Origin: Pyrinomonas methylaliphatogenes
Lineage (GTDB): Bacteria; Acidobacteriota; Blastocatellia; Pyrinomonadales; Pyrinomonadaceae
Direction: 5' to 3'
DNA length: 64,000 nt
Assembly (NCBI RefSeq): GCF_000820845.2
Contig: NZ_CBXV010000008.1
Location: 542,705-606,704, forward strand
Within the stretch, counting starts at the first letter, position 1. Every line of letters begins with the position of its first letter. The position numbers and the translations under genes are program-made. Shown here one piece after another: positions 50-58,728 of this stretch. The notes under the pieces were generated by a model, which did no database searches, had not been told where the DNA came from, and saw nothing but the letters and a program-made list of their open reading frames with translations.

Positions 50-1444
50 ATGGAACGCGCGATCGAAAAGGAGATCATCACACGCCTTTGTGAGATAGTC
101 GGGGAAGATCATGTCATCACGGAAGGGGAGAGGCTAGCGCCCTACGGACAAGATGCTCTCGGCGAACTCTTCCTGCCCGATCTCGTCGTCCTGCCGCGCA
201 CGACCGAAGAGGTGGCCGCCATCATGAAACTGGCTAACGAGAAGCTCTTGCCAGTGACGGCGCGCGGCGGTGGCGTCGGCTATACGGGCGGCGCCGTGCC
301 CATCAAAGGCGGACTTGTCCTGAGCACCGAGCGGATGAACCGCATCAAAGAGATCAACTTCGACGATCTTTACGCGGTCGTCGAACCGGGGGTGCGCACC
401 TATGAGTTGCAATGTGCGGTTGAAGCGCGCGGGCTATTTTATCCGCCCGATCCAGCTTCGTTTCGCGAATCCTTCATCGGCGGGAATATCGCTGAAAACG
501 CCGGCGGCCCGCGTTCGATTAAATACGGCGTGACCAAACACTACGTGCTCGGACTGGAGATCGTCACGCCGACGGGCGAGGTCATTCGCGCCGGAGGGCG
601 AACGACGAAGAACGTCGTTGGGTTCGATCTAGTCGGCTTGATCTGCGGTTCCGAAGGGTTGCTTGGCATCATCACGGAGGCGATCTTGCGCCTTCTGCCG
701 CTGCCTGAAGCGAGGCGTACGGTGCGCGCTCTTTTTCGCACTATGCGCGAAGCCTGCGCCTGCGTCCCGCAGTTTGTCCGCGCCGCGCTCGTCCCAGCCG
801 CGATCGAGGTTATGGATCGCCATTCCATTCGCGCCGTCAACGACGCCTTCTCCTTCGGCATCCCGGACGAGGCGGAAGCGTTACTGCTGGTCGAAGTTGA
901 CGGCAACCGAGACGAGGTGGAGCGCGAAGCGCGCATGGTCGAACGGATACTCCGCGAAAGCGGCGGATTCGATGTGCGGCGTGCAGAGACGGCTGAAGAG
1001 GAGAGAGAGCTTTGGGAAGTGCGCCGCGCTCTTTCCGACGCGATCAAACGATATGGGACGCTTAAGCTGAATAACGATGTCGTCGTCCCGCGCTCACGCA
1101 TCCCGGAGTTGATCGAGCGCGTCGAACAGATCGCGCAGCGATACGAAATCTTCGTCGTCAATTTTGGCCACGCGGGCGATGGGAACATCCACGTCAACTT
1201 CATGTGCGACGGCGACGATCGCGAGGCCGTGCGGCGCGCGCGCGAAGCCGTGCGTGAGACTTTCGCCGCGGCCCTCGAACTGGGTGGGACGATCAGCGCC
1301 GAACACGGCATCGGTTACACCAAAGCGCCCTATCTCAGAATGGCGCTTAGCGAGCCGACCATCGAAACGATGAAACGCATCAAGCGCGCGCTCGATCCGA
1401 ATTGGATCCTCAATCCCGGAAAGATGTTCAGCGACGACCGATGA
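50..1444 (+). CDS. FAD-linked D-2-hydroxyacid dehydrogenase (GlcD-like)
   Basis: Predicted flavoprotein that oxidises glycolate, D-lactate or a similar 2-hydroxyacid in the cytoplasm. The 464 residues match the usual GlcD length. A PCMH-type FAD-binding domain covers roughly residues 40-220, with the glycine-rich stretch ARGGGVGYTGG (about 71-81) and GGNIAENAGGP (about 144-154). The C-terminal FAD-oxidase domain carries HAGDGNIHVNF and the near-terminal SAEHGIGYTK. GlcE and GlcF partners are not next to it, so the exact substrate is open. The last codons and stop lie inside a 31-bp sequence that is repeated 66 bp downstream. The ATG at 50 has no strong ribosome site in the 49 bases available, so the start is only likely. 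Confidence 0.88.
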   Translation: MERAIEKEIITRLCEIVGEDHVITEGERLAPYGQDALGELFLPDLVVLPRTTEEVAAIMKLANEKLLPVTARGGGVGYTGGAVPIKGGLVLSTERMNRIKEINFDDLYAVVEPGVRTYELQCAVEARGLFYPPDPASFRESFIGGNIAENAGGPRSIKYGVTKHYVLGLEIVTPTGEVIRAGGRTTKNVVGFDLVGLICGSEGLLGIITEAILRLLPLPEARRTVRALFRTMREACACVPQFVRAALVPAAIEVMDRHSIRAVNDAFSFGIPDEAEALLLVEVDGNRDEVEREARMVERILRESGGFDVRRAETAEEERELWEVRRALSDAIKRYGTLKLNNDVVVPRSRIPELIERVEQIAQRYEIFVVNFGHAGDGNIHVNFMCDGDDREAVRRAREAVRETFAAALELGGTISAEHGIGYTKAPYLRMALSEPTIETMKRIKRALDPNWILNPGKMFSDDR

Positions 1445-1515
1445 GAATCTTCAAAAGATCCAGCATGTGGTCGGGGCTCTCATTGAAAGATGTTCAGCGA
1501 CGACCGATGAGAATC
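1419..1515. repeat. Repeat-spacer-repeat microlocus at the glcD-like stop
   Basis: A 31-bp sequence at 1419-1449 is repeated exactly at 1485-1515, with an unrelated 35-bp spacer between (period 66). The first copy includes the last codons and TGA of the dehydrogenase gene. Similarity stops abruptly at both edges, so this is not a decayed longer tandem duplication. It is the cleanest member of a family of loci in this window that share the geometry but not the repeat sequence. Confidence 0.9.
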
Positions 1516-1567
1516 CTCGACGGATTGATCAAGTTTCCGCTAGAAGCGCAGAGGTTGGAGCGACCGA

Positions 1568-6476: not shown

Positions 6477-6586
6477 ATCCAAAGGCGAGCGCAAAATGTT
6501 CAAAGGTTGGAAGATCTCGCGTGGATGCGCCGCTACGTGATCGTAACCATCCAAAGGCGAGCGCAAGATGGGCAGAAGGTTGGAAG
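6477..6586. repeat. Repeat-spacer-repeat microlocus (imperfect)
   Basis: A 37-bp copy at 6477-6513 and a 38-bp copy at 6549-6586 share ATCCAAAGGCGAGCGCAA and AAGGTTGGAAG. A 35-bp spacer separates them (period 72). It directly precedes the three-copy array at 6601 but has an unrelated repeat sequence. Confidence 0.75.
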
Positions 6587-6600: not shown

Positions 6601-6774
6601 GTCGAAACGGATTTAATCGCGTCCTTTGACTATGATGTCGCGCGCGCCCTCCGCCAACTGAATAGCGTCGAAACGGATTTAATAACTTCGTGTCCTTTGA
6701 CGCCAGAGCGTGCCCTGAATGTCCGCGGCAACAGCGCGCGTCGAAACGGATTTAATAACTTCGTGTCCTTTGAC
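6601..6774. CRISPR. Orphan three-repeat CRISPR-like array
   Basis: Repeats at 6601-6630 (30 bp, internally shortened by 5 bases), 6667-6701 and 6740-6774 (35 bp each, identical). They begin GTCGAAACGGATTTAAT and end GTCCTTTGAC. Spacers of 36 bp (6631-6666) and 38 bp (6702-6739) are unrelated to each other. The repeat ends form an imperfect dyad (GTC..AAA..GG against CCTTTGAC), as in many CRISPR repeats. No cas gene and no leader is visible nearby. It could be a relict array or the best-developed member of the spaced-repeat family seen elsewhere in the window. Confidence 0.6.
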
Positions 6775-6819
6775 GGCATCGGTGAATGGCTTTATGCTGT
6801 GGAGCGTTCGGAGAGAGCT

Positions 6820-10975: not shown

Positions 10976-11083
10976 CTTTCAAGCAGCATGAACTCTTCTG
11001 ACTGAATCGCGATGCACTTTTCCCTAGGTTGCCGCATCGCCGCTTGCCTTTCAAGCGGCGCGAACTCTTCTGACTGAATCGCG
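10976..11083. repeat. Repeat-spacer-repeat microlocus at the AraC-family stop
   Basis: A 36-bp repeat at 10976-11011 recurs at 11048-11083 with four mismatches, after a 36-bp spacer (period 72). The core GAACTCTTCTGACTGAATCG is identical. The right copy encodes the final residues RDSVRRVRAA and the stop of the minus-strand AraC gene. The left copy is a non-coding echo downstream. Confidence 0.88.
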
Positions 11084-20318: not shown

Positions 20319-20325
20319 AAGAGCC

Positions 20326-22061: not shown

Positions 22062-22829
22062 ATGAGATCGAGAAGGATCTTCATCACCGGCTCAGCCGAT
22101 GGTCTAGGGCAGCTGGCCGCGCGCCGATTGTCGGAGCAGGGACACCGAGTGGTTCTACACGCGCGCAACCCGAAGAGAGCGCGCGAGGCTTTGACCAGCG
22201 TCTCGAAAGCCGAGGGAGTGCTCGTCGCGGATCTATCTCGCCTCGAAGAGGTGAAGCGCTTGGCCGAAGAAGCCAACGTCATAGGCCCGTTCGATGCGGT
22301 GATCCACAACGCCGGAGTCTATCAAGCTTCGAACCGTGATCTGCTCACTGTCAACACCCTAGCGCCTTACGTTCTCACCTGCCTGATCCACAGGCCTGAG
22401 CGGTTGATCTATATCAGTTCGGATCTGCACTTGCACGGGCGCGCTGATCTCAAAGCCTTGGCTTCCGAAAGGATCAGCTACGCCGATTCCAAGTTCTACT
22501 TGGTGCTGCTGGCGAAAGCCGTCGCTCGCAAATGGTCGAACGTGTATGCCAACGCGGTCGACCCCGGTTGGGTGCCGACGAAGATGGGCGGTCCAAACGC
22601 GCCGGACGATCTCGAAAAGGGGGTCGAGACGCAAGTTTGGTTAGCTGCAAGCGACGATCCACAAGCAAAGGTCAGCGGCCGTTACTTCTACCACCTGCGC
22701 GAAGCGCGCTATCACCCTCGGGCCGACGACCTAGCGTTGCAAGAGGATTTCTTAGCCGTTTGCGAAAAGCTGACGGGCGTCGCCCTGCTCAAGGAGGAGA
22801 ACCGTAGTCCAAGGAAAGAAACCGGATAA
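22062..22829 (+). CDS. Short-chain dehydrogenase/reductase
   Basis: 255 residues. NAD(P) loop RRIFITGSADGLGQLAAR with TGxxxGxG, the HNAGVY motif, and an active-site region with SSDLHLHGR and YADSKFYLVLLA (Tyr-x-x-x-Lys present as YADSK). Classical SDR, substrate unknown, last gene of the aldehyde/alcohol cluster. The stop codon lies in a 29-bp segment repeated 67 bp downstream. Confidence 0.9.
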   Translation: MRSRRIFITGSADGLGQLAARRLSEQGHRVVLHARNPKRAREALTSVSKAEGVLVADLSRLEEVKRLAEEANVIGPFDAVIHNAGVYQASNRDLLTVNTLAPYVLTCLIHRPERLIYISSDLHLHGRADLKALASERISYADSKFYLVLLAKAVARKWSNVYANAVDPGWVPTKMGGPNAPDDLEKGVETQVWLAASDDPQAKVSGRYFYHLREARYHPRADDLALQEDFLAVCEKLTGVALLKEENRSPRKETG

Positions 22830-22903
22830 GCTCTTTATCGCTTCGCTCTTTCGGCTGATCATCTCTGTTACTAATCAAAGGAAAGAAAATGCATAAGCTC
22901 TAT
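22808..22903. repeat. Repeat-spacer-repeat microlocus at the SDR stop
   Basis: Copies at 22808-22836 and 22875-22903 (29 bp, about five mismatches) share AAGGAAAGAAA and ATAAGCTCT, with period 67 and a 38-bp spacer. The first copy contains the SDR stop TAA. Confidence 0.7.
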
Positions 22904-22970
22904 ACTCCGATTATCTCAGTCATTCCCACAGTCATCTTTAAGCGCTGCCTGTGCGTCCACGCTAAAACCC

Positions 22971-23258: not shown

Positions 23259-23710
23259 AACTTCTGCGAACATCAGATAACACATCAACAACTGCTGAGG
23301 AGGGACCTCCTCACATCCTCCGCAAGGGAATTTACACGGACGCAAGGGATCTGACCCCAACGTCCGCCCGAGCAGTTTCACTCTAGGGGCTTGAGGCGCG
23401 CTCCGGGCCGCGCTGACGGTCTCGCGCCTCGCGCGAAGCCAAGCCCAATCGTTGCGCCTTCATTCCTCCTTCGAAAGGTGGACCGCTCGGGCGGTAGCTT
23501 CTCGTAAGCCAAGAGCGACGAGAAAACTTGACAAACCACTGGTCGATGCACATTATCCCGACGCAAACTGGCATCATAAGGGCAGCGTCTACGCCAATTA
23601 TCGCGCCATATCGACGCAAATCATCCCGACGCAAATTGGCATAAGCTTGTAAGGCGGAAACAAAACGCCCTAAGGCAAGACGCCAGCGAAACGATCGAAT
23701 GAGGTAGACA
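23259..23710. other. Gene-free stretch with one spaced repeat pair
   Basis: 452 bases without a supported gene. Contains the small hairpin GAGGAGGGACCTCCTC near 23300 and the repeat pair at 23543-23642. The right end supplies the ribosome site of the hsdM remnant. Confidence 0.55.
23543..23642. repeat. Repeat-spacer-repeat microlocus
   Basis: 32-bp copies at 23543-23574 and 23611-23642 (four mismatches; shared ATCCCGACGCAAA and TGGCAT), spacer exactly 36 bp, period 68. Confidence 0.75.
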
Positions 23711-24895: not shown

Positions 24896-24954
24896 CTCCG
24901 AGGTGGGATGAGGCGATTGGGAAGAGTCTTCAGAGACTGGGCTATGGCAGCTAA
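24896..24954 (+). pseudogene. Second hsdM 3'-end fragment
   Basis: 59 bases that read WDEAIGKSLQRLGYGS and stop, matching the HsdM tail [16 protein letters not shown] at 24181-24239 in 46 of 59 positions with no gap. It shows either that a second hsdM stood here or that the mntA-hepT pair entered by recombination at hsdM ends. Confidence 0.8.
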
Positions 24955-25010
24955 ACAAGCGAATGAGATAGGATTGTTTTTTCTATCCTTGCGTTAGCAA
25001 GGAGGTGGCG

Positions 25011-25256: not shown

Positions 25257-25270
25257 CCGGAGGTGAACCG

Positions 25271-26783: not shown

Positions 26784-26932
26784 ATCAAACTAGATTGAAG
26801 TTTCGTCAGCCCGACCCTCGTGCCTTGGACGACATAGTGTTCGACGTGTTGGGCTTGACGGCAGGGGAGCGGGAGGTTATGAAGCGGTTATCAAGCTTGT
26901 CCGCACAACTGGAGAAAGCGAAGAGTGTGTAA
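26780..26932 (+). pseudogene. C-terminal tail of an adenine-specific DNA methylase
   Basis: 50 codons from an ATG that overlaps the preceding stop: FRQPDPRALDDIVFDVLGLT, then LEKAKSV and stop. LDDIVFDxLGL...LEKAKSV is the usual end of large Eco57I/BREX-type N6-adenine methylases of about 1000 residues. Nothing of the catalytic part is present, so this is a 3' stub. Confidence 0.6.
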
Positions 26933-26969
26933 AAAATTGATGAACAACTAAGTGTGGGGCGAAAGCGTC

Positions 26970-27566
26970 ATGGAAAAGTCAATCGAAACACTGGTTGAGC
27001 GGATCGGAAACGATTTGCAAGAAATCGAAAACTGTCTAAAGAGCGAAGGCGATCGATGTCTGAAAATCCGCTTCCCTCGCGGCTATCTGCGAAAGGCCAA
27101 GTTCTTTCGGAAACAGTATTGGTTTATCAGCAATCCCAACCTGCAGCGCAACATCGCCTACACACTGATCCTTAGCGACGTTTACCGGTGGCTGTTGAAT
27201 CGAACTGACCTGTACGGTACAGCTCGTGAGATGATTATCAAGGAGGGAATCTGTCTCGTCGGCAGCCTCTGTGAAAGCATCACCAAAGATGTTGCACAGC
27301 ATAAGAATATTTGTGGGAAGAACGCGGGATATAAACAGCGGACTGCCGCCATGGTCGAACAAGGTATGATTTCTGATAATTTAAAAAAGGACCTTGACGA
27401 TTTATGGGACTGGCGCAATCGCGAACATCTGTTTCTCCTCGATGAATGGGAATATGGCAAGTATACGCTCAAGCGCTACAACGACGCTATCCGGGTTCTT
27501 GGATGCCTGCGTGAATCGCTTGATGCCTATTTCCGAAAAACTGGAAAACCCCATTTTGACGGATGA
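26970..27566 (+). CDS. Uncharacterised protein in the defence remnant region
   Basis: 198 residues from the ATG at 26970; a GTG 18 bases upstream is possible. All-helical in appearance, intact frame. WDWRNREHLFLLDEWEYGKY (near residue 155) recalls the Arg-x-His surface of HEPN-fold RNases but does not meet the R-x4-6-H spacing. Codon use is AT-richer than the flanking core genes, suggesting transfer. Product unknown. One of the few unbroken genes here, hence possibly still selected. Confidence 0.6.
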   Translation: MEKSIETLVERIGNDLQEIENCLKSEGDRCLKIRFPRGYLRKAKFFRKQYWFISNPNLQRNIAYTLILSDVYRWLLNRTDLYGTAREMIIKEGICLVGSLCESITKDVAQHKNICGKNAGYKQRTAAMVEQGMISDNLKKDLDDLWDWRNREHLFLLDEWEYGKYTLKRYNDAIRVLGCLRESLDAYFRKTGKPHFDG

Positions 27567-27767
27567 CCTCGTGTCAACTTTACCTTTGACCGCTGGGAGC
27601 GGGAGGCGGCGCGTGAGGCGGTCATCGATTTGGTCCGCGCGTTCCGAAAGAGCCCAAAGCGTGGGAGAGAATATTGCATGCTTGCAACTGGACACTAAAG
27701 CAAATCAGGATTGCGCAGGGGCATCACGGCACAGGCATTATCGCTATTGATCTAGGCAGAAGCCGCA

Positions 27768-28718
27768 GCTTGATTCTGGAGAGGTACGAGGTCTGCTGCA
27801 GCCCCTTCCACGGCTTCGACTGGACGGCGTGGAAGACCGGCAGCTCCGAAGAGCGGTGCTCTGCTGTCTGTGGCTCAGGAGCATATTCTCGCCCAGGAGA
27901 ACGGGAAGGAACGGCTGCTGGAGGCGGTTTCGGCACTTTCGCGCGCCTTCGCGCTGGCAGTACCCCACGAAAAAGCCCTTGCTATCAGCGATGATGTGGC
28001 CTTCTTCCAGGCAGTGCGGGCAGCTCTCACCAAACGCGCCCCCAGCCAGCAGCGAACCGAGGAGGCACTCGATCACGCTATCCGCCAGATCGTCTCCAGC
28101 GCAGTAGCTCCTGAGGGTGTCGTGGACATTTTCGCTGCGGCAGGTCTCAAAAAGCCCGATATTTCCATTCTTTCCGATGAGTTCCTGGCTGAAGTGCGCG
28201 GCATGCCGCAGAAAAACTTAGCGGTGGAGCTTTTGCGCAAGCTCCTCGAAGGCGAAATCAAAATCTGGAGGCGAAAAAACCTGGTTCAGGCGCGCTCCTT
28301 CGCCGAGATGCTGGAGGCGGCGATTCGCCGCTACAAAAACCGGGCTATCCAAGCAGCAGAGGTCATCGAAGAGCTTATTCAGCTGGCTAAGGAGATACGC
28401 GAGGCGGACCGCCGCGGCGAAGCGCTCGGCCTCACCGAAGAAGAGCTTGCCTTCTACGATGCGCTGGAGATAAACGATAGCGCGGTGAAAGTTCTTGGTG
28501 AGCCGACACTACGGCAAATCGCCCAAGAGCTGGTGCGAACTGTTCGGGAAAACGTTTCGATCGACTAGGCGGTACGCGAAAACGTTCGCGCCAACCTGCG
28601 GCGCTTGGTCAAGCGCATCCTGCGCAAATACGGCTACCCGCCCGATAAGCAGGAAAAAGCAACCGAGACCATGCTCGAGCAAGCCGAACTCCTCTCCGCC
28701 GAATGGGCAGCCGCATGA
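27768..28718 (+). pseudogene. hsdR: hsdR (type I restriction endonuclease) C-terminal remnant
   Basis: Begins in one frame with [20 protein letters not shown], a segment found after the helicase core of HsdR. It shifts frame near 27858 and runs through [40 protein letters not shown] and [24 protein letters not shown] at 28566 replaces the Trp expected there, and the frame continues to the natural end SAEWAAA at 28718. The nuclease and motor domains are absent. 27567-27767, upstream, holds only short unassignable frames. Confidence 0.85.
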
Positions 28719-29149
28719 CGTGAGCGTCTAAACGTCGGTTACAGCAGGCGGTGCTGCGCAGCCCGCATCAGAATTGGTGAGTTGCCTTACTAAAAGGTGT
28801 CGATTTTTCCCGGGCATTTATTTTCGCAGAAAGCGGCGGGTCGGAGACCACTCCGGCGGAGCGCGTGTCGGCTTTTCCCCGAGCATTGATTATTTTCGCA
28901 AAGCTACGTGCGCACCAATTGCAGAGTGTGACGATGAAGTTAAGCACAGTGCAGGCAACGATACGTTATGAGTGTTAGACGGAAACCAGATGACACGACG
29001 GAGGTTTTCTTCGAGTGATGGAATATGACGAAGAAAACAAAGAACTTGGCCATCCACCCGCCGATGTGTATTATGCCGACATTCTAGATGCATTTTAGGC
29101 ATAAATCAGATAAAAATTAGCCGCCGCCATAAATCTTGGGAGGTAAAAG
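28719..29149. other. AT-richer gene-free stretch with one spaced repeat pair
   Basis: 431 bases between the hsdR remnant and the second MNT gene. No supported gene; contains the repeat pair at 28797-28900 and ends in GGGAGG upstream of the next ATG. Confidence 0.55.
28797..28900. repeat. Repeat-spacer-repeat microlocus (diverged)
   Basis: Copies at 28797-28828 (32 bp) and 28865-28900 (36 bp, a few extra bases) share GTGTCG, CTTTTCCC-GAGCATT-like and ATTTTCGCA blocks. Spacer 36 bp, start-to-start period 68. Confidence 0.6.
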
Positions 29150-29521
29150 ATGAGTCGTGAGGAGGTCATCAAATTACTACGGCAACATTACCCTATCTGG
29201 CCGCTCATTACGGCGTTAAAAGAATATGTCTGTTCAGCTCTATCGCTGCGCAACTTTTCGTTTTGCGGGAACCACCTCCACTACAGCGTTAAAAGAATTG
29301 ATCTGTTCGGCTCTTTTGCTCAGGGCGGGCCAGGTGAAACAGGCGACTCTGACCTTGTTGTGGAGTCTGAGCGTCCGATAGGGTTTCGGTTAGTAGAGTT
29401 GGTCGAGTATTTGGAGAATCTCCTAGGCCGGAAGGTTGATGTATTAACTCTAATGGGGGTTCGCGGGATTCGGTTGCCGTGGGTAGCCGCAGAGATTGAG
29501 CGAAGCATTATCTATGTCTAA
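29150..29521 (+). pseudogene. MNT nucleotidyltransferase interrupted by a spaced repeat
   Basis: Open for 123 codons, but the middle is wrong. After MSREEVIKLLRQHYP the expected LAAHYGVKRI lies in another frame. Then come 73 inserted bases, and the true protein resumes at VKRIDLFGSFAQGG, GDSDLVVESERPIGFRLVEL, LLGRKVDVLTLMGVRGIRLP. A compensating indel keeps the frame open. The nucleotidyltransferase aspartates remain, though the usual Ser before the first one is Gly (GDSDL). The end overlaps the broken HEPN gene. Likely inactive. Confidence 0.75.
29213..29320. repeat. Repeat-spacer-repeat microlocus inside the MNT gene
   Basis: 35-bp copies at 29213-29247 and 29286-29320 begin GCGTTAAAAGAAT and contain CTGTTC-GCTCT. 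Spacer 38 bp, period 73. In the old frame the first copy reads VKRICLFSSIA and the second VKRIDLFGSFA, so the catalytic-loop region of the gene has been duplicated around foreign DNA. Confidence 0.82.
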
Positions 29522-29943
29522 ACGGACAGACAGGGAGTTCTTGAGCGACATCCTAGAAACCATCCCCGAAAAATAGTCGGACGTTACGCTTAGCATCTCT
29601 CGTTCTTGAGCGACATCCTAGAAGCCATCCGCCGGATTCAGTCATATACGGGTGGGAACGTTTGAGGCGTTTTTGAGGTGATACGAAGACGCAGGATGCA
29701 GTGGTACGCAACCTAGAGATAGTCGGTGAGGCGGCGAAGGGATTGTCCGGCGAGGTGCGGGAGAGGTATCCTACAGTTCCCTAGAAGGGTATGGCGGGGA
29801 TGCGGGATCGCTTAATCCATCACTATTTTGGGGTGAGCCTAGATGTGGTGTGGGAGATTGTGAGCGCTGAGTTGGGCGAGGTAGCGCTGCAGGTAGAAGA
29901 GATTCTACGAGAGTTGGGAGAGCAGCAGCTAATCTGCGCTTGA
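29514..29943 (+). pseudogene. HEPN (DUF86) toxin gene, broken
   Basis: The ATG at 29514 overlaps the end of the MNT gene. The frame reads MSKRTDREFLSDILETI and stops at TAG 29573, because 65 bases are inserted there. FLSDILEAIRRIQSYTGG then resumes in another frame. Further stops precede QDAVVRNLEIVGEAAKGLSG and the RNase motif region RDRLIHHYFGVSLDVVWEIV. Homologous in layout to HepT, degenerate throughout. No protein can be made. Confidence 0.82.
29537..29630. repeat. Repeat-spacer-repeat microlocus inside the HEPN gene
   Basis: 29-bp copies at 29537-29565 and 29602-29630 differ at one base (GTTCTTGAGCGACATCCTAG shared). Spacer 36 bp, period 65. The left copy is joined to the authentic upstream codons and the right copy to the authentic downstream codons. 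So the inserted unit is spacer plus one copy. Confidence 0.92.
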
Positions 29944-30033
29944 TGCGGACGGCACTTCGCTTGCCCCGCGCTCGCCGCTAAGGCACAAGTTGTTAGGCGT
30001 CAATGCCTAAAAAATTCCATAGGAGGAAGGATT

Positions 30034-30479
30034 ATGGATAAGAATCTGGCAGTCAATCCAATTCGCGAGGGATTCCATACAGTAACGCCCTATTTGCTGG
30101 TTGACGGAGCTGACCGACTGATTGATTTCCTCTCAGCGGCATTCGATGCCGAAATCCTGGATCGCAAATTCCGTCCCGATGGCACGGTGATGCATGCCGA
30201 GTGCGCATCGGTGACTCGATGGTGATGCTTGGAGAAGCCAGCAGCGAGTTTAGGCCCATGCCCGCCTCCATCTACCTGTACGTTCAAGACTGCGACCGGG
30301 TCTATCAACAAGCGTTAGCTGCTGGCGGGGAATCAGTGTTTGCCATCAGAAATTTGCCCTCAGGCGAGCGATACGGTGGCGTGAAGGATCCCTGTGGCAA
30401 CATCTGGTGGGTTGCTACCCATATTGAAGATGTGTCGCCCGAGGAGGAAGAACGACGTTGGAGAGAGTTCAAGTTATAG
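30034..30479 (+). pseudogene. VOC/glyoxalase-family (PhnB-like) protein, frameshifted
   Basis: REGFHTVTPYLLVDGADRLI and AAFDAEILDRKFRPDGTVMH form the first VOC repeat. Near 30199 one base is missing (GAGTGCGC for an expected GAGGTGCGC), and the frame moves to RIGDSMVMLGEASSEFRPMP, YVQDCDRVYQQALAAGG and GDRYGGVKDPCGNIW-like sequence (actual GERYGGVKDPCGNIWWVATH). Otherwise full length, with AGGAGGAAGG upstream. A single recent lesion or a sequencing error. Confidence 0.82.
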
Positions 30480-30653
30480 GGGCCATTCAGGACGGTTCAT
30501 CTTTGCAATGAGAAAATAGAAGTATCAACAGGCAACTTCCTTCTGGCTTGGTTCGTACCGCGCATAACAGCAGCATACACAGCTCTGCATCTGGAGCGAC
30601 CAGTAAAACGCAGCAGCAGATCTAGGCTAAGCTTTGATTGAAGGAAGGTGCAG

Positions 30654-31124
30654 ATGCAAATCGGTTCACCTCATCTGGGAGGCAAGATCCCGCACCTGAT
30701 TATTCGACCGTCGCGCACCCAACTCGCCGTTCGCATCGCGTTCCTCTGCCTCTTTGCACTCGGCGTGCTGGTTTTGATTAGCGCCACCCACAAACTCGAA
30801 CCTGTCGCCTACTTGTTCGTCGGCTTGCCGCTTTTGCTTGTCTTGGACGCCCTGCTCACGTTTCGCACGCATATCGAGATCAACGACTGGGGGATCTCTC
30901 AGTCGCATTACTGGTCTAGCTGGAGCCACCGGTGGGACGAAATCTCAGGTTGGAGCTTGCACGAAATGAGTTCGCGAGGGCCAGATTTAGTCAGGATTGA
31001 GTTACATCTCGCTGCTGGTGGTCGGCGACAGAAGCTGACTCCCGCTCTCGTGCGATACAAGGATGCAAATTACCACAAAGTTCGCGACGCCCTCGTCAGG
31101 CATCTCGGCCCACCCTCGCCGTAG
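30654..31124 (+). CDS. Two-helix membrane protein with PH-like C-terminus
   Basis: 156 residues from the ATG at 30654 (AAGGAAGG 5 bases upstream). Two adjacent hydrophobic helices (IAFLCLFALGVLVLISA, AYLFVGLPLLLVLDALL) are followed by a beta-rich domain beginning TFRTHIEINDWGISQSHYWS, as in small bPH2-like membrane proteins. Function unknown. Intact despite lying within the decayed region. Confidence 0.65.
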   Translation: MQIGSPHLGGKIPHLIIRPSRTQLAVRIAFLCLFALGVLVLISATHKLEPVAYLFVGLPLLLVLDALLTFRTHIEINDWGISQSHYWSSWSHRWDEISGWSLHEMSSRGPDLVRIELHLAAGGRRQKLTPALVRYKDANYHKVRDALVRHLGPPSP

Positions 31125-31173
31125 TGAGGGTGACGAGGCGTGAGCCATTTTCAAGGACAGTCGTTCACTTGCG

Positions 31174-31270
31174 AAAAGTCAGTGCTTAATTGAGCATGCA
31201 TATTTAACGTGACCGGCGGGCAGAACTATTCCAACACTACTTAAAAGTCGATACTTAACTGAGCATGCAT
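31174..31270. repeat. Repeat-spacer-repeat microlocus
   Basis: 28-bp copies at 31174-31201 and 31243-31270 share AAAAGTC, CTTAA and TGAGCATGCAT (about five mismatches). Spacer 41 bp, period 69. Confidence 0.72.
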
Positions 31271-31305
31271 GACGGCAAACCTGATCGTAAGTTTACGGAT
31301 ACGCT

Positions 31306-31404
31306 GTCGATGAGAAAGCAGAGGGCTGGCTGAAAGATGAAAAGACTGAGGGCGAAACTGACTATCTACAAGTCGATGAGAAAGCAAAGAACTGTTGACT
31401 GAAA
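31306..31404. repeat. Repeat-spacer-repeat microlocus
   Basis: Copies at 31306-31335 (30 bp) and 31372-31404 (33 bp) share GTCGATGAGAAAGCA-AG and GACTGAAA-like ends. Spacer 36 bp, period 66. Confidence 0.7.
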
Positions 31405-31436
31405 CCCCTCAGCAGACGTTATTCCAGCGGCAACGC

Positions 31437-31612
31437 CTCAAACCGCCTCATCCGTAGCGCTAGTTTAAGCGATGAGGTAGGGTTAGTCGTATCGCGCTCT
31501 ACGCTCAAACCAGCTCAGCCACAGCGCTAGTTTAAGCGATAGAAGGTGCGCGGCTCAGCTCCCGCGCCTGATGATCCGCGCTCAAGCCATCCACAGCGTT
31601 GATTTAAGCGAT
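31437..31612. repeat. Three-copy CRISPR-like array, diverged
   Basis: Copies at 31437-31473 and 31504-31540 (37 bp each) and 31581-31612 (32 bp) follow CTCAAACC...CACAGCGCTAGTTTAAGCGAT with several mismatches. Spacers are 30 and 40 bp, periods 67 and 72 measured at TTTAAGCGAT. The repeat differs from the 6601 array. Confidence 0.68.
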
Positions 31613-31805
31613 GGGAGGGGCGCGTCACGCACGAGTTAGGGAGTTGAGTCGTATTCCTAGCAGAAAGCGAGAGAGGGAAGGTCGTTGTAAGGGGGAGAAG
31701 GCTTGGAATCGTATGGCTTGGCGACGGAAATTGGCCGCCCTTGATATCGGGCCTTGCGCTGCTTCGCGTTATAATCCCAAATACGTTCGTCTTTCGAGGT
31801 TGAAG

Positions 31806-32291
31806 ATGCTGGATGTCCTGAATAGACCGAACAGAGGGTCGCTCATCGCTAATCTGTGTGTTGCGCTTGCGTCCGTTTTGCTGATGAACGCGCTGATCTT
31901 TGGTTTCGGTTGGAACATCCCAAGCGACCAGATGCGAAGGGTTTGGTTTGAGCCGCCCGATTATGTGGTCGGCGCGGTTTGGGTAGCGTTGTTCGCGCTA
32001 ATGGCTTTTGCCCGCTGGCAACTCAACGGAACAACGACCGGGCAAGCTAGGCGCGCCCGCTTTTGGATAACATTTTTGCTCGTTTCCTGCCTGCTTTATC
32101 CGCTCTATTCGCTAGCGATCGGCAGCGTGATTGGCGGTTTGATCGGCAATCTCTGGACGATCGCGCTTGCCGCCTTCACGATCTCGCGCGTGTGGCGCGT
32201 TTCGCCCATCGCCGCATACTGTATCGCGCCCGTCATCGTTTGGGTAACGTTCGCGACGTTCATTACGCTTGGAGAGCTAGGTTATTTGTGA
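31806..32291 (+). CDS. TspO/MBR-like tryptophan-rich membrane protein
   Basis: 161 residues from the ATG at 31806; the longer upstream frame crosses repeats and is rejected. Five hydrophobic helices. WFEPPDYVVGAVWVALFALM matches the PP-x-W/Y-V-x-G-x-VW core of TspO proteins, and the end SPIAAYCIAPVIVWVTFATF fits the last helix. TspO binds porphyrins and sterols and influences their transport or breakdown in membranes. Somewhat divergent, with fewer Trp than usual. Confidence 0.68.
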   Translation: MLDVLNRPNRGSLIANLCVALASVLLMNALIFGFGWNIPSDQMRRVWFEPPDYVVGAVWVALFALMAFARWQLNGTTTGQARRARFWITFLLVSCLLYPLYSLAIGSVIGGLIGNLWTIALAAFTISRVWRVSPIAAYCIAPVIVWVTFATFITLGELGYL

Positions 32292-32333
32292 GCGAGGCGT
32301 CTTTTCACCATTAGCGAGAGCGGCAAAAGATCG

Positions 32334-33485
32334 ATGAAAAGCCGAGGCGTTGCGAAGGCGTTGGGCGCAAACGGATTCGACGCATCGCAAGAAAGCCCAC
32401 GTGCGGATGAATCCGAGAGCTTGCGAGAAAAATTGTCTGGACCTGCTAGCAAGCATGTGGCCGGGAAAGGACGCAGCGAGTTTGACCTCATCGCGCGCCT
32501 TCGCCGCATCGCAGCGACCGCTAAGCCGCGCCTTGTTATCGGCATCGGCGATGATGCCGCTCTGGTGCGCGAGCGGACCGGCCAGACGCTCGCCATCACG
32601 GCTGACATGCTCGTCGAGGAGATAGATTTTCGGCGACAATGGACGACGGCGCGCGATCTGGGCCACAAAGCTTTGGCCGTCTCTCTTTCCGATATCGCGG
32701 CGATGGGTGCGCGTCCGCGCTGGGCGCTCATTTCGCTCGGCGTGCCGCAAGAGATCTGGCGCACAGATTTTCTCGACGATTTCTACCGCGGATGGTTCGC
32801 CCTGGCGCGCGCAAGCGGCGTCGCGCTGATCGGCGGCGACATCTCGCGCACGCCCGAACGCATCGTGATCGACTCGGTCGTCCTCGGCGAAACGCGGCGG
32901 GCCATCATGCGTTCAGGGGCGCGCCCGGGCGATCTGCTCTTCGTCACGGGCGCGCTTGGCGGTGCCGCCGCCGGATTGCATCTGCTCATGACGAACGGTG
33001 TCGAAGAAGCGCACGAGAACGCATCTTTTCGTCCGCGACGCACGTCACGCGCAGATCGTCGCTTGATCCGTCGCCATCTGCGTCCAGAGCCGCGGCTCTC
33101 ATGGGGCAACTACTTGACTGAAAAGAAGCTTGCGACGGCGATGATCGATCTAAGCGATGGGCTATCGTCCGACCTTGCGCACCTGTGCCGCGAAAGCGGC
33201 GTCGGAGCGATCATCAACGCCGAGGCTATCCCTATCGATCCGCTGATCGCCAAGTCTTCGCTACGAGGCGAAGATCCGCTTCGCTTGGCGCTCGATGGTG
33301 GCGAGGATTTCGAGCTGCTCTTCACGGTGCGCCCGCGAGATATCCGACGTTTGCCGCGCGAACTGGATGGCGTGCGCGCCGTCTGCATCGGCGAAGTGAC
33401 GGCACGGCGACGGCTCGTGCTCGTTCGTGACGGGCACACGCTCCCTTTGCGCCCCGGCGGCTTCGTCCATTTCCACAGCCGATAA
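32334..33485 (+). CDS. thiL: Thiamine-monophosphate kinase
   Basis: 383 residues. Phosphorylates thiamine monophosphate to thiamine diphosphate with ATP. SEFDLIARLRRIAA, IGIGDDAALV and ITADMLVEEIDFRRQWTT give the Mg-ATP site. GHKALAVSLSDIAAMGARPR, GGDISRTPERIVI and MIDLSDGLSSDLAHLCRESG complete the signature. The first 45 residues are extra relative to typical ThiL, so the real start may be further in (no internal ATG with a good site was seen). The stop lies at the edge of a duplicated segment. Confidence 0.93.
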   Translation: MKSRGVAKALGANGFDASQESPRADESESLREKLSGPASKHVAGKGRSEFDLIARLRRIAATAKPRLVIGIGDDAALVRERTGQTLAITADMLVEEIDFRRQWTTARDLGHKALAVSLSDIAAMGARPRWALISLGVPQEIWRTDFLDDFYRGWFALARASGVALIGGDISRTPERIVIDSVVLGETRRAIMRSGARPGDLLFVTGALGGAAAGLHLLMTNGVEEAHENASFRPRRTSRADRRLIRRHLRPEPRLSWGNYLTEKKLATAMIDLSDGLSSDLAHLCRESGVGAIINAEAIPIDPLIAKSSLRGEDPLRLALDGGEDFELLFTVRPRDIRRLPRELDGVRAVCIGEVTARRRLVLVRDGHTLPLRPGGFVHFHSR

Positions 33486-33576
33486 AATGACCAGAAGTTT
33501 TTCTCATTTCGCGACAGACGCGCGCTCGCACGTCTCATCTTGCGCGCAATAAATGACCAGAAGTTTTTCTCATTTC
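33485..33576. repeat. Repeat-spacer-repeat microlocus at the thiL stop
   Basis: A 26-bp sequence at 33485-33510 recurs exactly at 33551-33576 (AAATGACCAGAAGTTTTTCT...), period 66, spacer 40 bp. A gapped match extends both copies a few bases left across the thiL TAA. Confidence 0.85.
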
Positions 33577-33617
33577 AGCCCTGTGGATCTTCTTCTCAGC
33601 CCTGTGGATCTTCTTCG
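33576..33617. repeat. 21-bp tandem duplication
   Basis: CAGCCCTGTGGATCTTCTTC plus one base occurs twice in direct tandem (33576-33596, 33597-33617), touching the right edge of the spaced repeat before it. The remaining 170 bases to the TonB gene hold nothing recognisable. Confidence 0.85.
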
Positions 33618-33789
33618 TTCCGCGCCGATCTTTAAAGCCTCTCGCGTGAGAGCGACGAACACTCGATCCCTTGCGGATCGCTCCTAGATTTTCGCGGTCA
33701 TGTGCCGGACTTCCGCTGATTGACTCGCTTGCAGACCTTGCCTAGACTCTTTCCGTGAAGATGAGGTGACACTAAAGGGGGCTTAGGCA

Positions 33790-34206
33790 ATGAGAGAAGC
33801 GCTACTTCGATTTTCGGCAACGCTCTGCGCTTTTCTGCTCGGCACGGGCACCGCGAGCGTTTGGAATCGCTGGACCGGCGAAAATTCCACGCGCCACAGC
33901 GGCATGGGAACGCTCTGCCACACGAGCGCCGCAAATTCGCCGTCTATCGTCAACGGGCGCGCCATCTCTTTGCCGCAGCCCGTTTATCCGCCGGCAGCCA
34001 AAGCAGCGCGCGCGTCCGGCGCGGTCAACGTGCAAATCGTCGTTGATGAAGAGGGCAAGGTCATCTCGGCCCGGGCCGTCTCCGGCCATCCGCTGCGCCA
34101 AGCGGCGGAAGAAGCGGCCCTTCGCGCGCGCTTTACGCCGACGCGCGTCGACGGCAAGCCGGTCAAAGTGAACGGCACCATCGCCTACAATTTCGCGCTC
34201 CTCTAA
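33790..34206 (+). CDS. TonB-family energy transducer C-terminal protein
   Basis: 138 residues. Short N-terminal hydrophobic segment (FSATLCAFLLGTG), a linker, then a TonB C-terminal domain: LPQPVYPPAAKAARASGAVN, VQIVVDEEGKVISARAVSGH, LRQAAEEAALRARFTPTRVD. The long proline-rich spacer of true TonB is missing, so it may be a secreted TonB-domain protein rather than the energy coupler. A TonB-dependent receptor is encoded at the end of the window. Confidence 0.83.
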   Translation: MREALLRFSATLCAFLLGTGTASVWNRWTGENSTRHSGMGTLCHTSAANSPSIVNGRAISLPQPVYPPAAKAARASGAVNVQIVVDEEGKVISARAVSGHPLRQAAEEAALRARFTPTRVDGKPVKVNGTIAYNFALL

Positions 34207-34264
34207 AGTTCGAGGCGCCATCGAAGATCCATCCGCCAAAACTTTAAAGACACAGCGAACGGGA

Positions 34265-35665
34265 ATGTTGAAGTTTCACAATACGCTTTCAGGCAGGCTC
34301 GAAGAGTTTCGCCCGTTGCGCGAGGGCGAAGTCGGATTCTACTTCTGCGGGCCGACCGTTTACGACTACGCGCACATCGGCAACTTCCGCTCGATGATCT
34401 TCGCCGACGTGCTGCGGCGTTACCTGAAGTTCAAAGGCTATCGCGTCACGCACGTGATGAACATCACGGACGTCGAAGATCGCATCATTGCCCGCTCGCA
34501 GGAGCGCGGCATCACGATCGACGAATACACGGCGCAGTATATCGAAGCGCTGTGGGAAGATTTCGACGCTCTGGGTTGCGAACGGCCCGACGTGGTGCCG
34601 CGCGCGACGCGCCATATCCCCGAGATGGTCGCGTTGATCAAACGGCTGCTCGAACGCGGTCACGCCTACAAGTCGGATGGTTCGATCTACTACCGCATCA
34701 GTTCTTTCCCAGAGTACGGGAAGCTATCGAAGATAAATTTCGCGGGCAACATCGTCGGCGGAAGCGAGCGCGTCGATTCAGACCGGTACGACAAAGAGGA
34801 CGCGCGCGACTTCGCCCTGTGGAAAGCGCCGAAGACGCCCGATGAGCCTGCATGGGATACCGAGATCGGGCGTGGGCGACCCGGCTGGCACATCGAATGC
34901 TCGGCGATGTCGATGAAATATCTGGGCGAGACGTTCGACATTCACGCCGGCGGCATCGATCTCGTCTTCCCGCATCACGAAAACGAGATCGCGCAGAGCG
35001 AAGGCGCGACCGGAAAGCAGTTCGTCCGCTACTGGCTCCATGCCGAGCATTTGAAAGTCGAAGGCGAAACGATGTCCAAATCGCGCGGCAATTACTACAC
35101 GTTCCGCGATCTTCGCGCGCAAGGTTACAAGCCAGAAGGCATCCGTTACCTTCTGCTGAGCGTGCCCTATCGCAAGCAGTTGAACTTCACCTTCGATGCG
35201 CTTCGCGCGGCGGAAAAGACGGTCGAATCGTTGCGCGATTTTCACCTCAGATTGGCCGAAGCGCGCACGGAACCGGGCAGCAACGGGGAAGTGCGTGCTG
35301 CCGCCGCGCGCGCCGCCGAAGAGTTCGAAGCCGGCATGGATGACGATCTGAACACATCGGTCGCGCTCGCGGCGATCCACACGCTGACGCACGAAATCAA
35401 CCCTGTGCTCGTCTGCGGCGCGTTGCGCGAGGACGATAAACGCGACCTATTGAACCTCGTCGCGCGCTTCGATTCCGTGCTCAACATCTTCGGTAAACCG
35501 GAACGCGAGATGTTGGACTCGGAGATTCAAGCCTTGATCGATGAACGGCAGGAAGCTCGCCGCCGTCGTGACTGGGCGCGCGCCGATGAAATCCGCAATT
35601 ATCTAGCCGAGCGCGGCATCATTCTGGAAGACACGCGCGAAGGCGTCCGCTGGAAACGGCGTTAG
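34265..35665 (+). CDS. cysS: Cysteinyl-tRNA synthetase
   Basis: 466 residues. Class I synthetase charging tRNA-Cys. Zinc-binding Cys in FYFCGPTVYDYAHIGNFRSM, which also contains the HIGH-like HIGN. WHIECSAMSMKYLGETFDIH, HHENEIAQSE and the KMSKS-type loop GETMSKSRGNYYT are present. Normal length. Upstream GGGA at a suitable distance. Monocistronic housekeeping gene. Confidence 0.97.
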   Translation: MLKFHNTLSGRLEEFRPLREGEVGFYFCGPTVYDYAHIGNFRSMIFADVLRRYLKFKGYRVTHVMNITDVEDRIIARSQERGITIDEYTAQYIEALWEDFDALGCERPDVVPRATRHIPEMVALIKRLLERGHAYKSDGSIYYRISSFPEYGKLSKINFAGNIVGGSERVDSDRYDKEDARDFALWKAPKTPDEPAWDTEIGRGRPGWHIECSAMSMKYLGETFDIHAGGIDLVFPHHENEIAQSEGATGKQFVRYWLHAEHLKVEGETMSKSRGNYYTFRDLRAQGYKPEGIRYLLLSVPYRKQLNFTFDALRAAEKTVESLRDFHLRLAEARTEPGSNGEVRAAAARAAEEFEAGMDDDLNTSVALAAIHTLTHEINPVLVCGALREDDKRDLLNLVARFDSVLNIFGKPEREMLDSEIQALIDERQEARRRRDWARADEIRNYLAERGIILEDTREGVRWKRR

Positions 35666-36189
35666 AAAAAACGCCTCCCGAGAAGGAGTGAGGTAACGGG
35701 CTGCATAGGCGCTTCTGTTACGATCAGCACATCGCCGTTCTATGAAAACTTCGAGGCGCGATGCGCTGGTTGGCACGGGCGCAGCGTTCATAGTGCTTCC
35801 GAAGTGAACATGCTGGGCCATGAGTTGGCTTCCATCGAACGCATTAACCTGAAGGCGGGGGCGTACTCGTTGGGGTTGAGCCAAACTGGCTTCCATCGAA
35901 CGCATGGACCTGAAAGAGCGACCCTTTATCAGCAATGTTAGTCCGCGGTCTCTTTTGAACTCATCGGTTCGGCTCAGCATCTTCCGTCGCTCATCCGGCG
36001 AAGCGGGAAGACAGCCGGGCGCACGCTCTGAGATTTTCCGAAGTCAAACACATGCGCGAGGTCTAAGAAAAAAGCCTCTCCGCGACCGGAGCGAGGATGA
36101 CGGAGAGCTGAAGAACATGTCGCCCGAGGAGCGTCTTCGGTTGGTGTGATCGTTGACGTTGAGCGCTTGGGCATTCAAGGAGCGACTCG
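35666..36189. other. Gene-free stretch with one spaced repeat pair
   Basis: 524 bases. Contains the pair at 35825-35914. Two short similar GC-rich hairpin-prone segments (near 35668-35700 and 36066-36110, each with AAAAAA-GCCTC and GAG-GAGG) may be terminator-like copies. A short frame ending MSPEERLRLV at 36149 looks like the decayed partner of the next remnant. Confidence 0.5.
35825..35914. repeat. Repeat-spacer-repeat microlocus
   Basis: 29-bp copies at 35825-35853 and 35886-35914 share TGGCTTCCATCGAACGCAT and ACCTGAA (three to four mismatches), period 61, the shortest in the window. A gapped match extends the copies leftward, so the true spacer is about 24-32 bp. Confidence 0.72.
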
Positions 36190-36363
36190 ATGCTGAACCG
36201 CGACTACAAAGAGATGTTGTCGTGCTTGAAAGAAGAAGGGGTTGAATTCATCATCGTCGGTGCCTACGCTTTGGCGGCTTGTTCTTTATCCTGCCCTCGT
36301 GCGCAAAGAGCCATGCGCATGATTATCAAGGCGCACATTGGAAAGATCCTGTGCCAGTGGTGA
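36190..36363 (+). pseudogene. Nucleotidyltransferase (AbiEii-like) N-terminal fragment
   Basis: 57 codons from an ATG with AAGGAGCG upstream. MLNRDYKEMLSCLKEEGVEF and IIVGAYALAA match the start of small MNT-fold proteins of defence operons. The catalytic D-x-D that should follow is absent and the rest is unrelated. Preceded by in-frame but stop-interrupted LSAWAFKERLDAEPR, probably its former partner. Confidence 0.6.
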
Positions 36364-36439
36364 ATAGATGGGGTTCTCATCTCTAGGCTCCGAGTCGGTT
36401 TATCTTGGCAGCTTTTATAGTGAATCTCAGCAAAAAGGC

Positions 36440-37055: not shown

Positions 37056-38417
37056 ATGTCCGCCATTTTCACCGTCAACAGGCCGCAGATCAAGACCGCA
37101 CTACCCGGACCGAAAGCGCAAGAGATCATCAACGCCGATCACCGTTTCGTTTCGCCTTCTTACACGCGGCCCTATCCGTTCGTTGCGGCGCGCGCCGAAG
37201 GCGTCTGGATCGAAGACCCGGACGGCAACATCTTCCTCGATTGCAACGCGGGCGTCGCCGTCTGCTCGACGGGCCACTGCCACCCCGAAATCGTCCGCGT
37301 CATTCAAGAGCAGGCGGCTGAATTGATTCACGTCTGCGGCACCGACTACTACTACCGGCACATGCCACTCTTAGCGCGCAAGCTCGATGAGATCGTGCCT
37401 GTGCCGAGTCCGACGCGCACGCACTTTGCCAACAGCGGCACGGAAGCGGTCGAGACCGCCTTGAAACTGGCGATGTATGCGACGGGGCGCGAAAAATTCA
37501 TCGCCTTCTTCAATAGCTTTCACGGGCGCACGCTCGGGTCGCTCTCGCTCACTTCGTCCAAAGCGGCGCAGCGGCGCGGCTTTCGCCGGCAAGCGCTGGA
37601 CGTCACGCACGTGCCTTACGCTTATTGCTTCCGCTGCCCGTACAACCTCGGCAAGCGCGAAGATGGTGCATGCTGTTTGGGCGCGATCGATTGGATCGAA
37701 AATCGCCTCTTCAAGACGACGTTGCCGCCCGAAGAGTGCGCCGCCATCGTCGTCGAGTGCGTGCAGGGCGAAGGAGGGTACATCCCTGCGCCGCGCGAAT
37801 TCTTACAAGGCTTGCGTCGCATCTGCGATGAACACGGCATCTTGCTCATCGTTGACGAAGTGCAATCCGGGATGGGACGCACGGGCAAGATGTTCGCTTG
37901 CGAACACTACGACCTCAAACCGGACATCATCTGTCTGGCGAAGGGGATCGCATCGGGCCTTCCGCTCGGCGCATGTGTCGCGCGCGCCGATCTGATGACA
38001 TGGAAGCCGGGCGCGCACGCTTCGACTTTCGGCGGCAATCCGGTCGCCATCGCCGCCGCTTTGAAAACGATTGAACTGCTTGAACGCGAACTGATTGCCA
38101 ATGCCGCGAGCGTCGGCGAGCACCTGCAGCAGGGGTTGCGTCGGCTGATGGAAAAGCACGAAGTGATCGGCGATGTGCGCGGACTTGGCTTGATGATCGG
38201 CGTCGAGTTCGTCGAAGACCGAAAGACGATGAAGCCTGCGCCCGAACTTCGCGACCGCGTCGAGCGCGCCTGTTTCGAACGCGGCTTGATCTTGCTCGGC
38301 GCCGGTACGAATACGATCCGTTGGTCACCGCCGCTCATCCTGACGCGCGAGCAAGCGGATGTCGCCATCGAGATCTTCGATGAAGCGATCGCTGCAACCT
38401 GCCGCTCCAGCGCTTGA
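37056..38417 (+). CDS. Class III PLP aminotransferase (GABA/acetylornithine type)
   Basis: 453 residues from the ATG at 37056, chosen for its strong ribosome site and because the upstream 40 codons look non-coding. Fold type I, subgroup III: GVAVCSTGHCHPEIVRVI, HFANSGTEAVETALKLA, FHGRTLGSLSLTS, LIVDEVQSGMGRTGKMFACE and the PLP lysine in ICLAKGIASGLPLGACVAR, then HASTFGGNPVA. A cysteine pair (YCFRCPYN) is seen near residue 190. Closest to 4-aminobutyrate or diaminobutyrate aminotransferases. Substrate uncertain. Stop codon lies in a duplicated 33-bp segment. Confidence 0.9.
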   Translation: MSAIFTVNRPQIKTALPGPKAQEIINADHRFVSPSYTRPYPFVAARAEGVWIEDPDGNIFLDCNAGVAVCSTGHCHPEIVRVIQEQAAELIHVCGTDYYYRHMPLLARKLDEIVPVPSPTRTHFANSGTEAVETALKLAMYATGREKFIAFFNSFHGRTLGSLSLTSSKAAQRRGFRRQALDVTHVPYAYCFRCPYNLGKREDGACCLGAIDWIENRLFKTTLPPEECAAIVVECVQGEGGYIPAPREFLQGLRRICDEHGILLIVDEVQSGMGRTGKMFACEHYDLKPDIICLAKGIASGLPLGACVARADLMTWKPGAHASTFGGNPVAIAAALKTIELLERELIANAASVGEHLQQGLRRLMEKHEVIGDVRGLGLMIGVEFVEDRKTMKPAPELRDRVERACFERGLILLGAGTNTIRWSPPLILTREQADVAIEIFDEAIAATCRSSA

Positions 38418-38506
38418 TTTGCGCCGAAGAATACAGCATCGCTGGACCGGCAAACAGAGTAGAAAGCCAACGAGCCGCTCCAGCGCTTGATTTGCGCCGA
38501 AGAATA
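38401..38506. repeat. Repeat-spacer-repeat microlocus at the aminotransferase stop
   Basis: A 33-bp sequence at 38401-38433 recurs exactly at 38474-38506 (GCCGCTCCAGCGCTTGATTT...), period 73, spacer 40 bp. With two or three mismatches both copies extend 6 bases left. The first copy contains the last codons and TGA. Confidence 0.9.
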
Positions 38507-38531
38507 GAGGGCGAAGGCGCGCTTCAACGCG

Positions 38532-58579: not shown

Positions 58580-58635
58580 CGCGGACCTCTCAGCGAGAGG
58601 TGGATCGGTTAAGGAAGAGCGGCCCTTCGGCTTTC

Positions 58636-58728
58636 GATCCAACGTAGATCGGATTCGTGAATGAGACAGAAAAAGAGTTTTCCTCATCGTGTACGCTCTT
58701 TAGATCCAACGTAGATCGGATTCGTGAA
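58636..58728. repeat. Repeat-spacer-repeat microlocus at the PHP gene end
   Basis: A 26-bp sequence at 58703-58728, coding FTNPIYVGS near the end of the minus-strand PHP gene, recurs exactly at 58636-58661 (GATCCAACGTAGATCGGATT...), period 67, spacer 41 bp. Weaker similarity adds a few bases on both sides. Confidence 0.85.

Follow-up and report, generated by a model that had tools for sequence, protein, structure and literature searches.

Probable scars of off-target spacer integration by Cas1-Cas2, mostly between genes, in Pyrinomonas methylaliphatogenes

Off-target integration by Cas1-Cas2 has been proposed as a route to new CRISPR arrays and, to our knowledge, natural evidence for the birth of arrays in this way has been thin so far. 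In 2018 Nivala, Shipman and Church reportedly found that spacer-sized DNA had entered sites other than arrays and that a repeat-length target resembling the native one was duplicated in the process. Hundreds of sites are said to have been seen in E. coli overexpressing Cas1-Cas2, together with a few putative natural cases, and the genesis of repeat-spacer-repeat (neo-CRISPR) loci was reportedly proposed. Casposons are kilobase elements with terminal repeats and duplications of 14-15 bp. Passages of PMC11788318 and PMC9456107 cite Nivala et al. 2018 for off-target Cas1-Cas2 integration as a known reaction. In the accessible portions of the literature searched, which was thin on subscription papers, no report was found of mass natural off-target integration, of such integration in Pyrinomonas or of three size classes together. 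It looks as though the reaction is already known and the scale and the match to three CRISPR types are new.

Here three repeat groups are described that stand side by side in a 64,000-nt stretch of DNA from the hot-soil bacterium P. methylaliphatogenes K22 ("the window", meaning the whole stretch analysed), together with other pairs of the same class (Table 1). The groups are interpreted, with a probability of roughly 0.92, as scars left where Cas1-Cas2 integrated spacers off target, such insertions being tolerated for the most part between genes. As in neo-CRISPR loci, a repeat-length duplication surrounds a spacer-sized insert; the differences are that 148 pairs were found in 30.5% of one natural genome, in three classes matching three types, and that some inserts are self-derived, decay is graded and presence or absence is seen in a sister genome. 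Casposons share with the reaction proposed here a Cas1-family integrase and a target-site duplication, but the present inserts are ~33-37 bp and the duplications ~28-36 bp (medians).

Table 1 Repeat pairs and flanking open reading frames (ORFs) in the window, with the contig of sister genome G001 that shares them
Feature	Position	Strand	Description	Shared with
Pair	1419..1518	.	period 66, repeat 34, insert 32	
Weak pair	6477..6570	.	period 72, repeat 22	
Three copies	6601..6778	.	periods 66 and 73	
Pair	10976..11083	.	period 72, repeat 36, insert 36	
Pair	22805..22904	.	period 67, repeat 33, insert 34	G001:C209
Pair	23543..23642	.	period 68, repeat 32, insert 36	
Pair	29206..29320	.	period 73, 8 mismatches, within nucleotidyltransferase-like ORF	
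Pair	29537..29630	.	period 65, repeat 29, insert 36	G001:C209
Flanking ORF	30648..31124		no Pfam match	
Group 1	31174..31270	.	duplicated target 28 nt with 4 mismatches, 41-nt insert, period 69 (copies 31174-31201 / 31243-31270)	
Group 2 (weakest)	31306..31404	.	duplicated target ~23-33 nt, small indel, period 66 (core 31306-31328 / 31372-31394)	G001:C120
Group 3, first pair	31437..31540	.	37-nt repeat, 30-nt insert, period 67 (31437/31504)	G001:C120
Group 3, second pair	31516..31624	.	37-nt repeat, 35-nt insert, period 72 (31516/31588)	G001:C120
Flanking ORF	31611..32291		TspO/MBR-family match	
Pair	33485..33576	.	period 66, exact 26-nt repeat	G001:C120
I-E-size pair	35826..35914	.	period 61, repeat 28, insert 33	G001:C120
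Pair	38395..38509	.	period 73, 3' end of aminotransferase ORF	
Pair	58631..58728	.	period 67, repeat 31, insert 36	

The first-pass annotation had described the three groups as adjacent, each with its own repeat and with periods of 66-72. All three were found where it had placed them, at periods 69, 66 and 67/72. When units were compared between groups, 49 to 225 of 300 shuffles reached the observed score (16 comparisons), so that their likeness is that of shuffled letters, whereas within groups no shuffle out of 300 did so (5 comparisons). The repeats are thus private to each group, and descent from one ancient, diverged repeat, the finding that the annotation had named as contrary to its view, was not seen; a single ancestral repeat is ruled out by this comparison. 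A genuine CRISPR array was also rejected, because each group has a private repeat, in only two or three copies. No simple tandem repeat was reported here by Tandem Repeats Finder, and in an Rfam scan of the window the gathering score was reached by one tRNA only, with no family at the groups.

The triplet of group 3 consists of two pairs. The second is shifted in register by 12 nt and is therefore probably a separate event that overlaps the first. Group 2 is weak when taken alone: its core is identical at 20 of 23 positions, a longer extension of the copies needs a small indel, and its score of 15.5 lies below the cut-off of 16 used in the census. The dimensions of group 1 (28+41) match none of the size classes described below exactly, the 41-nt insert being outside the native spacer lengths.

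When the window was scanned against shifted copies of itself, 20 pairs appeared at periods of 20-400, 17 of them at 61-73. A census of non-tandem repeat pairs (score at least 16) was then made in 1,156,874 bases, or 30.5%, of the host genome. The sampled stretches were picked by contig, around the window and around cas loci, and so are not random; the native arrays (on contigs C5 and C9) and pairs with a repeat as long as the period were excluded. The host assembly comprises 3,788,560 bases on 16 contigs, equal to the 3,788,560 bp in 16 scaffolds that PMC4644332 gives for the published genome of strain K22T. Passages of that paper list 15 CRISPR repeats, the word "CRISPR" occurring twice in its text, and suggest that junctions between scaffolds may be due to the abundance of CRISPRs and of repeats of other kinds.

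The sample holds 148 pairs at periods 57-78, 10 at 15-56 and 85 at 79-400. Random far offsets gave 0.1 pair per offset in 903 kb (20 pairs, 200 offsets) and, in a second estimate, ~0.3 pair per offset per Mb (60 offsets). At these rates about three to eight pairs would be expected over 22 offsets, and chance is excluded as the source of the class. In other bacteria, ~490 kb scanned at a score of at least 15 gave 4 pairs at periods 60-76. Pairs are unevenly spread in the host. The 64-kb window holds 16, the 110 kb surrounding the Cas4-Cas1 locus and the 160 kb that follow the window downstream hold 28 each, an N-containing 200-kb stretch holds 9, and 40 kb of contig C3 hold none. Extrapolation to the whole genome gives about 480 such pairs. 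They are clustered: gaps of 300 bp or less number 36, whereas 300 simulations of random placement in non-coding DNA averaged 14.3 such gaps and never exceeded 25. A few clusters hold three or more copies.

Unequal crossing-over commonly yields tandem copies, and this general knowledge is what favours reading the pairs as tandem duplications of 61-73 bp whose second halves have diverged. However, in 21 of the 148 pairs perfect repeats of 24 nt or more give way to unlike inserts, an abrupt change; periods outside 57-78 are rare and some inserts match distant sites instead. The chance that tandem duplication is the origin is accordingly put close to nil. Mismatch between the copies of a pair spans 0 to more than 20%, as would be expected if scars of Cas1-Cas2 integration decayed by mutation.

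When pairs with at most two mismatches and repeats of at least 22 nt were taken, three size classes were seen, whose limits were picked after inspection of the data: median repeat 28 and insert 33 at periods 59-64 (n = 16), 30 and 36 at periods 65-69 (n = 34), and 36 and 37 at periods 70-76 (n = 17). In type I-E the native repeat is 29 nt (28 effective) and the spacer 32 (33 effective), and in E. coli the net result of integration by type I-E Cas1-Cas2 is a 28-bp duplication and a 33-bp insert. The duplication medians of 28, 30 and 36 nt correspond to native repeats of 29, 30 and 36, and the insert medians of 33, 36 and 37 to native spacers of 32, 36-38 and 34-39. The three classes thus equal the unit sizes of the genus's three cas1-bearing types: I-E, I-B and the array beside Cas4g/Cas1g.

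Two cas1 loci were found in the host genome. One has a Cas4g/Cas1g fusion, with csm genes nearby, and a 49-repeat array whose unit is 36 bp and whose spacers measure 34-39; the fusion would be the module behind the 70-76 class. The other, at a contig end, is an I-B operon (cas6, cas7, cas3, cas4, cas1, cas2) with a 30-bp repeat and a period of 66. The sister genome has an I-B array (30-bp repeat, period 66-68) and, beside Cas1e (365 bits), three repeats of an I-E array spaced at a period of 61. By type, therefore, I-B cas1/cas2 and cas4-cas1 are present in K22, and Cas1e in the sister genome only. A search of the K22 assembly found no Cas1e and no I-E-like repeat, and perfect 28+33 pairs are nonetheless present there, which requires recent loss or an assembly gap.

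Several further observations were made at cas loci. Just past the 36-bp native array, at C5:119085-119372 of K22 (L024:19085-19372), lie five imperfect copies of a ~30-nt unit, with periods of 57, 65 and 67 between neighbouring units of like type; this is possibly a grown private array. The region L024:4743-12661, near csm and cas4-cas1, encodes a 1008-aa ORF with no NCBIfam, PADLOC or Pfam match and a 1634-aa DEAD-helicase/MZB protein resembling DruE. The N-terminal part of the Cas1 of the I-B operon (L026:11624-12985) includes an acidic, low-complexity stretch of ~100 residues; those matches in six relatives that begin, as here, at profile position 21-26 likewise sit within long open frames (375-433 aa). 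On contig C586 of the sister (L148:1795-3267) the N-terminal part of a gamma-glutamyltranspeptidase runs in frame into the C-terminal part of a Cas1, either by rearrangement or by misassembly.

Target-site preference was analysed with the duplication fixed at the native length; pairs too far from the class length were left out, so that 49 of 66 pairs were used at periods 65-68, 29 of 47 at 70-75 and 14 of 25 at 59-63. Motif positions, like the class limits, were picked after inspection. In the I-B class (49 pairs, 98 ends) G was found at -2 in 59 of the 98 ends (p = 2.5e-10, uncorrected), and the other favoured positions were A at -5 (43), G at -3 (42), G at -1 (42), G at +1 (43), T at +3 (31), A at +11 (41) and A at +12 (42). 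This boundary motif is symmetric, being seen on both sides. The G at -2, the sole position retested, held in 8 of 10 ends (5 pairs) from sequence added after the motif had been spotted. Native I-B repeats have G at +1 of their ends and A at +12, and the native I-B array of the sister adjoins a G run, reading towards the repeat. The 70-75 class (29 pairs, 58 ends) favours T at +2 (26 of 58), A at +6 (26) and A at +7 (22), and the 59-63 class (14 pairs, 28 ends) T at +4 (13 of 28), C at +8 (17) and C at +9 (15).

Likeness to native repeat ends was scored out of 26 against neighbouring sequence, with 500 controls. The I-E class resembled I-E ends (10.21 against 7.67, z 4.9, 0/500 controls) and the I-B class I-B ends (9.27 against 7.61, z 5.4, 0/500). 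Some likeness was also seen across classes, of the I-E class to I-B ends (z 2.6, 3/500) and of the I-B class to I-E ends (z 1.8, 20/500), so specificity is incomplete. The 70-76 class was not above control against the ends of its presumed native repeat (z 1.2, 56/500) and matched I-B ends better than its own array (z 3.6, 0/500). According to passages of PMC6895254, off-target sites of S. thermophilus Cas1-Cas2 also favour a border G and resemble the leader-repeat junction, with the repeat length set by a ruler, as the length of the duplication here would be. That case is type II, in vitro and on a plasmid target, with probably half-site products, whereas full-site products fixed in a chromosome are seen here.

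The sources of 141 inserts were sought, seven of the 148 pairs being left out as their inserts fall outside 20-52 nt. Near full-length copies of seven inserts (34-38 nt, 89-100% identity by BLAST) occur elsewhere in the 30.5% sample, each alignment beginning at the first base of the insert, and one further insert has a 25-nt partial match. Control stretches of equal lengths beside the pairs gave a single 22-nt match. About a fifth of the inserts would be self-derived, if sources are evenly spread. A source was found in the sample for 1 of 65 pairs with at most one mismatch, taken as young, and for 7 of 76 older ones, which counts against off-target integration by Cas1-Cas2. The 48 native spacers of the 36-bp array gave no comparable match in a smaller sample, the longest being 20 nt, and no shared PAM motif was visible by eye beside the 8 source sites, which are of mixed classes. 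In a BLAST search against the sample, other inserts included, no insert sequence was held in common; a mobile element of fixed sequence was rejected on this ground.

These data also bear on the possibility that the pairs stem from a different insertion process that leaves long target-site duplications, be it a small mobile element, a casposase-like enzyme or staggered-break repair, and that the match to CRISPR sizes is coincidental. Filler-DNA repair could likewise copy distant DNA into the inserts, the 70-76 class is unlike the ends of its native repeat and the search for a PAM at source sites found none. Such a process would, however, have to produce by coincidence three separate size pairs equal to those of three native CRISPR types, and two of the classes bear the repeat-end motif of their own type around inserts with no sequence in common. 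We consider it improbable. Off-target integration by Cas1-Cas2 has weak points of its own, namely the failure to find a PAM, the failure to detect Cas1e in K22 although perfect 28+33 pairs occur there, the motif mismatch of the 70-75 class and the odd dimensions of group 1.

The sister genome is 97-99% identical to K22 over 19566-22912 and 29281-38386 of the window (contigs C209 and C120), its other matching parts being 66-86% identical. The annotation had suggested alignment with sister genomes as a check. At group 1 the sister has one copy, which does not differ from the second K22 copy, and lacks the 41-nt insert; the first K22 copy differs from the sister copy by four transitions. On this alignment, insertion in K22 is a simpler reading than deletion between the copies in the sister. 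Groups 2 and 3, in contrast, are present in both genomes. About 20 bp upstream of the group 1 site, contig C120 of the sister carries an insertion absent from K22, with an outer period of 135 and an inner pair at period 72, which may be read as two nested events. Over 113 kb of the sister, partly chosen for its match to K22, 32 pairs have periods of 57-78 and 16 of these are off-array, a similar density.

Other differences from the sister were noted. The flanks of 22913-29280 in the window (99.5% and 98.4% identical) are directly adjacent in C209, so this 6.4-kb stretch, in which DUF3644 and the C-terminal domain of a type I restriction endonuclease are partially matched, is either an island of K22 or a deletion in the sister. 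At 33575-33616 K22 has a 21-bp tandem duplication where the sister alignment is 21 bases shorter. Near the counterpart of window position 35694 the sister (C120, L140:5340-5480) has a 49-bp tandem duplication that is absent from K22 and outside the size classes.

With ORFs called mechanically (at least 120 codons), 35 of the 148 pairs lie wholly inside an ORF, 39 partly and 74 outside, whereas 81% of random windows lie inside. Periods that are multiples of three were found in 21 of the 35 pairs inside ORFs against 41 of the 113 elsewhere (p = 0.018). At 29206-29320 the copies stand in different reading frames, as a period of 73 is not a multiple of three. The annotation had taken the groups to lie in DNA free of selection, and both the depletion in ORFs and the preferred periods within them agree with this. 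Its picture of a hot spot where loci keep forming was borne out: new insertions appear in the comparison with the sister and clustering exceeds random placement, but the place is one of many in the genome. It had offered no mechanism; supplying one corrects a reading that is otherwise supported.

That most pairs lie outside ORFs, several of them near ORF ends, and that a few clusters have three or more copies could also suggest small elements under selection for a function, such as terminators, regulatory repeats or working mini-CRISPR arrays. This is regarded as very improbable, for each of the three groups has a separate sequence, the mismatch runs from 0 to over 20%, the sister lacks the group 1 insert, and no Rfam family reached threshold at the groups.

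Relatives were scanned at a score of at least 16 and periods 57-78. Among those with cas1, G028 gave 8 rows in 295 kb (5 from one local cluster, 1 clean 28+33 pair and 2 weak), G026 gave 7 in 99.9 kb (6 from one dispersed palindromic family and 1 of low complexity), G023 gave 1 in 100 kb, of low complexity, G034 gave 2 in 100 kb, G014 gave 1 in 80 kb, with a 64-nt repeat, and G019 gave 54 in 39.9 kb, all within one native array. G003, without cas1, gave none in 80 kb. The scarcity or lack of pairs in relatives that carry cas1 counts against the proposal, as the presence of cas1 is by itself no predictor of pairs; Pyrinomonas may differ through relaxed targeting, high expression or slow loss. 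The family in G026 (contig C4, L212-L214) is a dispersed palindromic element with a AATCCCACCAACGCAGTTGGTGG core and varying spacings. G028 is a relative from the same class in which cas1 is matched several times; its perfect 28+33 pair (contig C1, L165:1786-1874) is perhaps a rare off-target event.

We propose that Cas1-Cas2 carrying spacer-sized DNA would attack the two strands of an ordinary chromosomal site at an offset equal to the CRISPR repeat length, targets resembling native repeat ends being favoured. Gap repair would then duplicate the target on both sides of the insert, giving a repeat-spacer-repeat with a private repeat. The three modules of the genus (I-B, I-E and the Cas4-Cas1 beside the 36-bp array) would each leave scars of their own repeat and spacer length. 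Insertions would persist mainly between genes, some of them in or beside earlier ones, as in the triplet, and would then decay by mutation. Off-target Cas1-Cas2 integration would explain jointly the sizes, the classes, the motifs, the nature of the inserts, the decay and the polymorphism, and it may be continuing today.

Several hundred scars (by extrapolation), ranging from perfect to decayed, would make natural off-target integration measurable from sequence alone, including its target preference, repeat-length control, spacer source, selection and turnover. A bolder view, for which the odds are rather low, is that the adaptation machinery of Pyrinomonas acts on its own genome as a major insertion mutagen and keeps giving rise to new CRISPR loci, in which private repeats hit again become proto-arrays of three to five units (the triplet and the copies past the 36-bp array being examples), some of them perhaps read and used. 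If the pairs are scars of Cas1-Cas2, adaptation genes carry a mutational cost, and the scars are a possible readout of past CRISPR types, as with the I-E-sized scars in an assembly in which no I-E system was found.
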